Part shown: positions 16,184 to 21,268 of the stretch, one piece after another
Numbering within the stretch: position 1 is the stretch's first letter
Layout: every line of letters starts with the position of its first letter
Origin: a virus
DNA length: 24,155 nt
Strand: one strand, 5' to 3'
Virus record (IMG/VR): IMGVR_UViG_3300034095_000977
Coordinates: 1-24,155 of that record
The notes under the pieces: generated by a model
Databases searched by the model: none
What the model was told of the DNA's origin: nothing
Seen by the model: the letters and a program-made list of their open reading frames with translations, nothing else
Program-made: the position numbers and the translations under genes

Positions 16184-16191
16184 TATATTTG
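16184..16191 (+). promoter_or_regulatory. -7 element before the candidate structured RNA
   Basis: TATATTTG fits TAnnTTTG and lies 7 bases after the annealing-protein stop. No TTG stands at the standard distance upstream (16162-16164 reads TGA), so activity is likely but not certain. The predicted start is near 16197. Confidence 0.55.
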
Positions 16192-16197
16192 TGCCGT

Positions 16198-16292
16198 TGA
16201 TTCGGCTTCACAATTAGAATCATAAAAGATATTAAAAGCCATGCTTGAAGTTGGTAGTGAAGCCCCAACAGATAGTGTGGCTTTACTTTTTT
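16198..16292 (+). ncRNA. Candidate structured small RNA or attenuator leader with loop-loop pairing
   Basis: About 95 nt between a -7 element and a terminator. Hairpin 1: TGATTC (16198-16203) with GAATCA (16217-16222). Hairpin 2: AAAGCCA (16235-16241) with TGGCTTT (16278-16284), a symmetric 8x8 internal loop, then GTTGG (16250-16254) with CCAAC (16265-16269). The two loops hold GGCTTCAC (16204-16211) and GTGAAGCC (16257-16264), perfect complements that could form an 8-bp kissing contact. The outer stem is followed by ACTTTTTT, a terminator signal ending 11 bases before the ATG at 16304. The GGCTT and AAGCC segments occur twice each and permit a second, exclusive fold. It may be a free RNA or a switch for the ParB-DUF4326 gene. 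I do not recognise a known family. Confidence 0.65.
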
Positions 16293-16303
16293 AAAAAAAT
16301 GTT

Positions 16304-17290
16304 ATGGAACTTAAAATTAAAGAAGAATTTAAAAAGCTGATTCCACCGCTTACGCCTGATGAATACAAACAGCTTGAAACAAATTGCATTGAAGAAGGTA
16401 TTCGCGATGCTATTATTACTTGGAATGGCTATATTATTGATGGGCACAATAGGTATAAGATAGCACAGGATTGGCAATTAAGTTTTAAGAGTATAAGTAA
16501 AAATTTTGATAGTGAATTTGATGTTGTTGAATGGATGCTGGTTAATCAGTTAGGTAGAAGAAATATTACACCTGAACAAAAAGATTATTTGATAGGTAAA
16601 AAGTATGAAAATGAGAAACAAAGACAAGGTAGACCAGAAAATAAACTTGACAAAATGTCAACATTAACATCTCAAAAAATAGCTAATGAAGTTGGTATAT
16701 CTGATAGGCAAGTAATAAGAAACGAGCAATTTGCTAAAGGTATTGACAAAATGAATGATGATTTGAAAAACGTTGTATTGCAAGGTAAATCTTCATTAAA
16801 TAAACAAGACATTCAAATTATTGCTAAAGCTGAACCGACATTTGTTGCAACTACAGAAAAGCAAATAATTGAAAAGGCTAAAGAATTAAAAGAGCAAAAA
16901 GCGCAAGAATTTAAAGCTAAGATTGAGCAAAGAATTGAACAGAAAACACAAGAACAACCTATTTCAATTGATGAACAAATTTTGTTTGATAAGATAGAAC
17001 AAGGCGAAACGGTTGTTATAAATATGAATTTACATTTTCACGTTTTGAAATATGCTAAAGACAAAGGTATTTATAAACAAATAGATAGGTATTCAGAATT
17101 TGGCAATCCTTTTTTTTTAGATTCTGATGGTACACGCGATGAAGTATGTGATGGCTATATTGAATACTTTAAACACAAAAGAAGCCTTCACAGCAAAGTA
17201 AAAGATTTGAAAGGTAAAGTTTTAGGCTGCCATTGTGCGCCTCAAAGATGCCACGGTGACCATTTAAAACAATTAGCAGATGAAAATTAG
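16304..17290 (+). CDS. ParB-like/DUF4326 fusion protein
   Basis: A 328-residue protein in three parts. Residues about 1-100 resemble the ParB/Srx fold: PLTPDEYKQLETN, then GYIIDGHNRYKIAQ, where DGHNR is the motif of phage ParB-like proteins. Residues about 100-165 hold an HTH-type region (QKIANEVGISDRQVIRNEQF). A Lys/Glu/Gln-rich coiled linker covers about 185-225. Residues about 230-325 match DUF4326 (YSEFGNPFFLDSDGTRDEVC, then LGCHCAPQRCHGDHL at 307-321). ParB-like phage proteins bind or cut DNA; the role of DUF4326, with its Cys/His cluster, is unknown. It comes 11 bases after a terminator-like hairpin, so expression may need read-through. Confidence 0.8.
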   Translation: MELKIKEEFKKLIPPLTPDEYKQLETNCIEEGIRDAIITWNGYIIDGHNRYKIAQDWQLSFKSISKNFDSEFDVVEWMLVNQLGRRNITPEQKDYLIGKKYENEKQRQGRPENKLDKMSTLTSQKIANEVGISDRQVIRNEQFAKGIDKMNDDLKNVVLQGKSSLNKQDIQIIAKAEPTFVATTEKQIIEKAKELKEQKAQEFKAKIEQRIEQKTQEQPISIDEQILFDKIEQGETVVINMNLHFHVLKYAKDKGIYKQIDRYSEFGNPFFLDSDGTRDEVCDGYIEYFKHKRSLHSKVKDLKGKVLGCHCAPQRCHGDHLKQLADEN

Positions 17291-20289: not shown

Positions 20290-21126
20290 ATGATTTACCG
20301 CCCCAAAATTAAAGTACATTCTAATGAAGAAGTAGAATATTGGAAAAACCTAATAAATGAAAAGCGCCAACAAAACAAAAGTTTGCAGCGCTGGTTAGTT
20401 GTTAGTGATGTACACAGGCCGTTTCATAATCAGATACTATGGCAAAAACTACTGAGGCTAATATCTGAACTTGGCACTAATTTACACGGCATTGTTTTAG
20501 CGGGCGATTATTTAGACTTATACACGTTAGGTTCTTATAATGCTGAATCATTAGCTAACTTATCGGGCCTTACATTACAAGATGAATATATTGATGGCTT
20601 ACAAGGTATTGATGATATTAACAGCGCGTTCAAAGGTGCAAAAAAGTATTTTCTATTTGGCAACCATGAAGACCGATACTTTAGGCATATCAAAGAAAAG
20701 GACAATGCTAAATACGGTGGCGCTTTAATAAATCCTACTGATGCATTATACTTGTATGAACGTGGATGGGAAGTTAAAACAGACTGGCAAAGTGATTTTT
20801 TCACGTTAGGCAAACACTTAGATATAGTTCACGGCGTTTACACATCTATACATGCAGCTAAAGCGCACTTAGATAAAACTCAACATAGTGTTATGTTTGG
20901 ACATACACACCGAGTTCAATGCTATCATTCAGGTAATAGGGCCGCGTTTAACATTGGCGGATTATATGATATTAAATCAAAAGGTTTTAGCTATATGCCG
21001 CGATTCCAGCGCCAATTGTGGGCAAATGGTTTCGCCATCGTCAATATAAATGACAATGGCGATTTTTACGTAGAACAAATTAACGTTTGGGCCGATAAGT
21101 TTTTAGCTAATGGTAAAATGTATTAA
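20290..21126 (+). CDS. Calcineurin-like metallophosphoesterase
   Basis: A 278-residue protein with the five metallophosphoesterase blocks in order: VVSDVHRPFHN (Asp40, His42), VLAGDYLDLY, LFGNHEDRYFRH, DIVHGVYTS and MFGHTHRVQ. A dinuclear metal centre would hydrolyse phosphodiesters or phosphomonoesters. The N-terminal 35 residues are a helical lead. Genes of this type often follow terL in Bacteroidota phages; the substrate is unknown, and a role in DNA end processing or in degrading a signalling nucleotide is possible. It begins 4 bases after terL and ends the rightward operon. Confidence 0.85.
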   Translation: MIYRPKIKVHSNEEVEYWKNLINEKRQQNKSLQRWLVVSDVHRPFHNQILWQKLLRLISELGTNLHGIVLAGDYLDLYTLGSYNAESLANLSGLTLQDEYIDGLQGIDDINSAFKGAKKYFLFGNHEDRYFRHIKEKDNAKYGGALINPTDALYLYERGWEVKTDWQSDFFTLGKHLDIVHGVYTSIHAAKAHLDKTQHSVMFGHTHRVQCYHSGNRAAFNIGGLYDIKSKGFSYMPRFQRQLWANGFAIVNINDNGDFYVEQINVWADKFLANGKMY

Positions 21127-21141
21127 GTTGTACAAAAACTA

Positions 21142-21154
21142 GGACAAAATGTCC
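21142..21154. repeat. Short inverted repeat GGACA-AAA-TGTCC
   Basis: A perfect 5-bp inverted repeat with a 3-base centre, just after the metallophosphoesterase stop and overlapping the possible small ORF start. Too small for a terminator and without a T run; it might be an operator-like site. Confidence 0.4.
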
Positions 21155-21268
21155 AAGTATCTACATATGAATTTGGGGTGTGGCGAAAATGATGTTTCTA
21201 AATGCTCGCTGTGTCTTATTGATAGAATCGGTTTGAACGACATCAGCCCCAATTTAACGTTCACGTAA
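21149..21268 (+). CDS. Possible 39-aa Cys-rich small protein, or structured RNA
   Basis: An ATG with AGGA six bases before it opens 39 codons: MSKYLHMNLGCGENDVSKC, then SLCLIDRIGLNDI. Three Cys (11, 19, 22) could bind metal. The same DNA, however, holds nested complementary segments: TTGGGG (21173-21178) with CCCCAA (21247-21252), TGATGT (21190-21195) with ACATCA (21240-21245), and TTCTA (21196-21200) with TAGAA (21223-21227). Such nesting is unusual in a coding region and points to an RNA fold. I cannot decide between the two; both may apply. It lies in the 258-base gap between convergent operons. Confidence 0.4.
   Translation: MSKYLHMNLGCGENDVSKCSLCLIDRIGLNDISPNLTFT

Follow-up and report, generated by a model that had tools for sequence, protein, structure and literature searches.

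Leader RNAs with covarying kissing loops ahead of replication genes in phages of Bacteroidota: a previously uncatalogued family of probable transcription attenuators

In the plasmid systems pT181 and pIP501 (RNAIII) and ColE1 (RNA I/II), lineage-specific kissing loops are combined with leader attenuation ahead of a replication initiator gene. Type III toxin-antitoxin loci consist of a promoter, a structured pseudoknotted RNA and a terminator, followed by a gene. Immunity of phage P4 depends on Rho-dependent termination and on an RNA that is processed and then acts in trans, and its leader, the CI RNA, was reportedly described by Deho et al. in 1992. The putL and putR elements of phage HK022 are cis-acting nascent RNAs of about 70 nt with two stem-loops that are located downstream of the early promoters, with more than one copy per genome (PMC9378689).

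The RNA discussed here lies in the window, which is the whole 24,155-nt stretch of viral DNA that was analysed, a virus record of IMG/VR. Like put, it is predicted to be a cis-acting nascent phage leader RNA situated just past a promoter, with two stem-loops and multiple copies (PMC9378689). However, put suppresses remote termination, has no described loop-loop helix and no terminator of its own, and belongs to other hosts; homology between the two is not shown. The P4 CI RNA (cited in PMC10362022) is also a phage leader with internal complementary elements upstream of a replication gene, and it also links a small RNA to premature transcription termination. It differs from the present family, in which there is an intrinsic-type U-run and both pairing partners are in one short transcript. 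The plasmid kissing RNAs share with this family the lineage-specific kissing loops and the position of a predicted attenuating leader ahead of a replication gene, but they use a separate antisense RNA, whereas here both loops are in cis. No antisense promoter was found on the opposite strand in or next to the window leader, and the nearest downstream minus-strand TAnnTTTG box is at 17062-17069. The order of promoter, structured RNA, terminator and gene is that of type III toxin-antitoxin loci; unlike these, the leaders have no tandem repeats and are followed mostly by replication genes rather than by ToxN-like nucleases. The likeness to put, the CI RNA and the plasmid RNAs is one of functional analogy and not of homology.

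We consider it reasonably likely that the window RNA belongs to a family of phage leaders, not catalogued before, whose members are cis transcription attenuators. RNA polymerase would start near 16196 from a Bacteroidota sigma-A promoter, and the first 27 nt or so would fold into H1 and expose the K1 loop. H2 would form next, its K2 loop would pair with K1 over 8 bp, and the outer stem of H2 together with the U-run would halt a large share of the transcripts near 16291. Transcripts that read through would carry the replication/recombination operon, with its first start codon 15–25 nt further on. Most likely the K1–K2 helix holds H2 in its terminating form, and either sets the fraction of read-through or lets something else set it. 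The leader would probably decide how often the virus makes its replication proteins. Within this model the exact start site, the termination itself, the favouring of termination by kissing, and a phage or host origin of the signal during infection are points that we infer. The features of the window RNA are collected in Table 1.

Table 1. Features of the predicted leader RNA and its first downstream gene in the window
Feature	Position	Strand	Basis
Sigma-A type -7 box TATATTTG (Bacteroidota TAnnTTTG)	16184..16191	+	Box also upstream of members located via the downstream protein; putative promoter activity
Predicted leader RNA of about 96 nt, +1 to end of U-run	16196..16291	+	MFE/centroid fold, R1 covariance-model matches; start site predicted from box position
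Hairpin H1, stem 16198-16203/16217-16222	16198..16222	+	Fold; 84% of the MFE folds across the family keep H1
K1 loop octamer GGCTTCAC, kissing partner 1, abuts H1 5' arm	16204..16211	+	Covariation over 56 first-loop sequences; gene-blind test
A-rich linker, H1 to H2	16223..16234	+	Mostly 12-14 nt among members
Hairpin H2: outer stem 16235-16244/16275-16284, inner stem 16250-16254/16265-16269	16235..16284	+	Fold and A1 alignment
5' side (UGAA) of symmetric internal loop, opposite AGAU 16270-16273, tandem G-A type	16246..16249	+	UGAA/GGAU or near variants in most members; presumed sheared geometry
K2 loop octamer GTGAAGCC, kissing partner 2, abuts inner-stem 3' arm	16257..16264	+	8/8 pairs standard in 15/15 A1 rows, 5 changed on both sides
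U-run of intrinsic-terminator-like end	16284..16292	+	At least 6 T within 11 nt at H2 end, 88/88 members
First operon gene: ParB-like N-terminal domain and DUF4326, 328 aa	16304..17290	+	Pfam DUF4326 at 259-322; relatives annotated ParB-like

Published start-site data for Flavobacterium place the sigma-A -7 box, TAnnTTTG, at -12 to -5 (PMC9723704), and the window +1 is therefore expected near 16196. When the predicted transcript (16196-16291) is folded, H1 and H2 make up both the MFE and the centroid structure, at -24.2 kcal/mol, and both octamers lie fully in loops. This agrees with the original prediction of two hairpins carrying perfect 8-nt complementary loops, and its positions for the box, the loops and the stems are all correct. 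The outer stem of H2, which had been drawn as 16235-16241/16278-16284, is real but longer than that; it has 10 bp including G-U pairs, with a possible 11th pair at 16245/16274. Folding of the full 120 nt (16184-16303) gives a different H1 because untranscribed promoter bases are included. The stability of the transcript fold has a z-score of -2.55, and 3 of 200 shuffles were equally stable. The two octamers are the sole complements of each other in the 24-kb window and neither recurs there. The neighbours of the RNA are a Rad52-type gene on one side and, on the other, the ParB-like/DUF4326 gene, the start codon of which (16304) is 19 nt past H2. The family was defined in this analysis by a TAnnTTTG box, H1 with K1 abutting its 5' arm, an A-rich linker, a two-part H2 in which K2 adjoins the 3' arm of the inner stem, a U-run, a start codon within about 30 nt, and covarying K1 and K2. 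The window RNA has all of these features, and its architecture score is 35.0 compared with a maximum of 24.8 in 400 dinucleotide shuffles.

Relatives of the window RNA were sought by searching viral contigs with the downstream ParB-like protein, which gave 67 loci. The promoter, the two hairpins and the U-run are found ahead of the ParB-like gene in 46 of these, and the loop pairs differ among them: GGCTTCAC/GTGAAGCC, GCAACCAC/GTGGTTGC, GACTTCAC/GTGAAGTC, GGCACTAC/GTAGTGCC, AATGCAG/CTGCATT, CATCTCAC/GTGAGATG and others. The first covariance model, R1, located second copies of the RNA downstream on the same contigs, ahead of DUF6291 genes, and each of these copies carries a loop pair of its own.

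The strongest evidence for the loop-loop helix comes from a search that took no account of genes. All viral contigs were scanned with the pattern TTTG-N6-GTTC-N6-ACANTATAGAAC, which represents the end of the box, the arms of H1 and the two final bases of the loop; it leaves six of the eight positions of K1 free, and K2 is not part of it. There were 77 matches, comprising 50 distinct RNAs with about 45 different first-gene starts behind them. An exact complement of the full K1 octamer occurs within the next 68 nt in 49 of the 50, and the 50th pairs by way of G-U. When K1 was swapped between RNAs with different octamers the count was 0 of 2150, and with shuffled downstream sequence it was 9 of 10,000. 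The complementarity on which the original prediction had staked its case is thus kept in homologues, both in the gene-blind set and in the RNAs found at ParB-like loci.

The structure was further evaluated with an architecture parser and an alignment. The parser, applied at every candidate box on both strands of 3.67 Mb, returned 269 matches. These correspond to 150 distinct RNAs, among which there are 56 different K1 sequences; the reversed sequence, scanned in the same way, returned none. There are 46 distinct complementary pairs among 88 parsed RNAs, with a mean score of 32.5, and no shuffle scored above 26.3. Alignment A1 (15 rows) has the loop-loop helix 100% paired, with five of its eight pairs changed on both sides, which is the covariation that had been looked for. 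The outer stem is paired in 95% and the inner stem in 100% of the cells, also with changes on both sides. The covariation score of the whole structure in A1 is 0.435, compared with 0.175 +/- 0.018 for shuffled alignments and at most 0.073 when the partners are slid by 1–3 columns. The mutual-information values for K1–K2 are partly circular, as the parser picks complementary octamers, and it is the gene-blind test that is free of this circularity. At the level of sequence comparison, H1, H2, the K1–K2 pairings, the U-run and the location between box and start codon are demonstrated; covariation establishes the structure, and the function is what we infer from it.

The anatomy is described here by medians over the 88 RNAs. 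H1 begins 5 nt after the box, at +1/+2, K1 (8 bp of kissing helix) follows the 5' arm of H1 without a gap, H1 is closed by 6 nt (typically AUUAUA), and the linker has 13 nt. H2 has an outer stem of 11 bp, a symmetric 4 x 4 internal loop, an inner stem of 4 bp and 2 nt before K2, which abuts the inner 3' arm. The distance from the end of H2 to the ATG has a median of 20 nt (5–95%, 8–24). The internal loop is UGAA/GGAU or UGAU/UGAU, of tandem G-A type, in most members. A second subtype (L010, L110, L211) has the internal loop GAGUA/GAAA, which we take to fit the bulged-G (loop E) consensus, together with loops of 6-7 nt, all of which the kissing helix takes up; both motif assignments are made from sequence alone. 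Across the family, K1–K2 duplex energies are about -11 kcal/mol. The leaders of Muminvirus (L239, ~2134-2240) and of an elemovirus (L240, ~2124-2240) have a longer H2 and 7-8 nt of kissing (TGAGACG/CGTCTCA and TGAGAGC/GCTCTCA). Both score under the parser threshold, and from these two the family extends beyond the models built here.

An attenuator is the simplest reading of this arrangement because a complete promoter-proximal terminator of intrinsic type stands directly ahead of the first gene of the operon: the RNA is a 5' leader that runs from promoter to first gene and ends in a hairpin and U-run. An open reading frame starts within 60 nt of the leader in 139 of 144 cases, so there is no room for another promoter. 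Several points count against it. The U-run is interrupted in a few members (e.g. L124, L105, L214), some phages have the ParB or DUF6291 gene but no detected leader RNA, and promoters further upstream could also feed the operon.

A further point against the attenuator is that classical ones have a mutually exclusive antiterminator, and none is conserved here, as judged from the alternative helices in 111 relatives and from mutual information. Any regulation should therefore depend either on a factor whose target is the folded RNA or RNA polymerase, or on competition for the loops. The original prediction had included a second, nested fold that excludes the first. The window sequence can form these helices, and a 5' leader with a terminator is what a metabolite riboswitch or bistable RNA would look like; however, only 4 of the 111 relatives have one of the two helices complete and only 11 the other, and no alternative pairing is conserved, so that this claim fell away. 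A riboswitch is expected to have a conserved ligand-binding core and a function-linked gene set, and neither was found: there are few conserved unpaired residues, the internal loop of H2 switches between two unrelated, interchangeable motifs, and no metabolite is common to the downstream genes. We regard such a switch as very improbable. From the earlier choice of riboswitch, attenuator or regulated small RNA, it is the attenuator type, with its own box and terminator, that stands and the riboswitch core that does not.

A complete transcription unit with a TAnnTTTG box and a U-run could also be a stand-alone phage sRNA that acts in trans on a host RNase, ribosome, RNA polymerase or mRNAs, with the operon expressed from elsewhere; given efficient termination such an RNA would accumulate by design. 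This is unlikely, as the RNA keeps a fixed distance of 15–25 nt to the start codons of dozens of unrelated genes, which leaves a second promoter without space. Its loops also differ in every lineage, and therefore no constant external target can pair with them.

The nearly invariant U-run bears on two further proposals. The leader sits at +1 of phage operons, has two hairpins in about 95 nt, occurs in up to three copies on a contig and needs no partner protein; in comparison with put, it might likewise be an antiterminator that binds RNA polymerase as folded nascent RNA, so that the enzyme passes over pause and termination sites further downstream. An antiterminator has no need for a U-run right after H2, and HK022 put, which has no described kissing loops, acts on remote terminators (PMC9378689), so we think a put-like role quite unlikely. 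Alternatively, H2 at about 20 nt before the AUG may modulate ribosome loading or mRNA stability rather than termination. Bacteroidota mRNAs are SD-less and secondary structure tunes their initiation (PMC6847099), and the closeness of H2 to the AUG, which in the L043 clade is only 8 nt, would suit such a translational leader. It is nevertheless an improbable explanation, since it accounts neither for the conserved U-run nor for the promoter-proximal architecture of the whole leader.

The attenuator would serve many different operons. The original prediction had tied the RNA to a ParB-DUF4326 gene, and this tie is incidental: the same RNA precedes DUF6291 replication genes, at 64 of the 80 loci searched, and some 37 further clusters of genes. 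First and second genes are mostly for replication or recombination (DUF6291, HTH, replisome-organiser-like, ERF-like, primases, helicases), and HNH and many small genes also follow the leader; several of these assignments come from reading the sequence or from the annotation of neighbours. The first ~90 residues of the ParB-like protein (window 16304-17290, L003-L069) are nearly invariant across viruses and its C-terminal part varies, being DUF4326 in the window and other sequences elsewhere. The protein is modular, with an N-terminus that travels with the RNA.

Where a contig carries two or three copies, these differ from one another in their loop pairs, and this is so in every such set. On contig L110, three copies (954, 2822-2828 and 4542), each with a different kissing pair, precede an ERF-type region, a ParB-like gene and a DUF6291 gene. 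Ahead of genes that are 95–98% identical, one entire RNA has in places been replaced by another (e.g. L157/L155, L172/L173, L169/L176). A different subtype or loop ahead of such replication genes is seen in these pairs and in L192/L191, and the leader/gene boundary in all four resembles a recombination joint. There are also pairs in which the rest of H2 is identical and K1 and K2 have changed together (L030/L016, 0/44 vs 7/16; L218/L222, 0/41 vs 4/14). Among 19 disjoint sister pairs with orthologous RNA, 27 of 304 loop sites and 26 of 722 other H2 sites differ (p 0.001), with the differences concentrated in five pairs. Unbiased sister pairs overall have a small loop excess (0.306 vs 0.253, p 0.01), which is clear only in pairs with orthologous RNA. 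The stronger statement, of faster evolution in the loops than elsewhere, was dropped, as the first comparison had chosen pairs by loop change, and the excess is kept as suggestive. These patterns suggest that there may be selection on loop identity.

Why would a leader change its two loops together? It is conceivable, although we give the idea little credence, that the loops are a specificity code, by which nascent leaders whose loops match would be targets, in trans, of the terminated ~95-nt RNA, and that the same code provides RNA-based replication control and superinfection immunity of tailed phages, with loop types comparable to plasmid incompatibility groups. This would be consistent with the differing loops of copies on the same contig, the bursts of change in K1 and K2 and the replacement of whole RNAs. 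If it is true that loops act between molecules, this would be a new kind of phage immunity.

The family was not recognised in the original prediction, and database searches bear this out. No matches to Rfam 15 were found for the window and 20 diverse relatives at the gathering cut-off or at permissive E-values; the best sub-threshold match, TtnuHACA12 (E 0.29, 22 of 80 bits), is a chance one. When phage and plasmid records were searched by BLASTN with the 141-nt region there was no real match, because the primary sequence is too variable. None of the open-access papers searched describes this RNA. By its membership the family is new, and it appears, from the sequences, to work like a phage attenuator leader.

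Control of gene expression in Bacteroidota phages is largely unmapped, and the leader RNA gives a direct handle on early regulation. In phages of Flavobacterium, Cellulophaga, Olleya and Polaribacter and in many uncultured viruses, it shows where the promoter and the start site lie and where the replication operon begins. The natural and highly diversified set of loop-loop pairs on terminators (56 first-loop sequences) is useful for RNA structure work and for orthogonal regulators. Cultured carriers, which are phages of these four genera, include 11b, phi13:2, phi19:3, Harreka_1, Danklef_1 and Muminvirus tooticki, and the elemovirus was added on reading. A search with R2 over 395 Bacteroidota genomes, with about 10 candidates per genome scored, gave one weak match that on reading is not a leader RNA, a result that does not imply absence; DUF6291 matched in 2 of 247 genomes, both with no leader RNA.

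Two weaker candidates were noted. Cellulophaga phage phi13:2 has an extra weak covariance-model match (L324:23462-23567, E 0.02) that the architecture parser did not report and that surrounds a small hypothetical gene. A possible distant relative with a score of 29.1 is found in the gut Bacteroides phage LoVEphage (L326:972-1087, record 21044-21159). It has a TATATTTG box, an H1 loop (GTAGCAG) fully complementary to the 7-nt H2 loop (CTGCTAC), a U-rich tail and a long linker, and its H2 is without the usual internal loop. It starts just past a repressor-side gene and is divergent from it, which is the site expected for an early rightward promoter.
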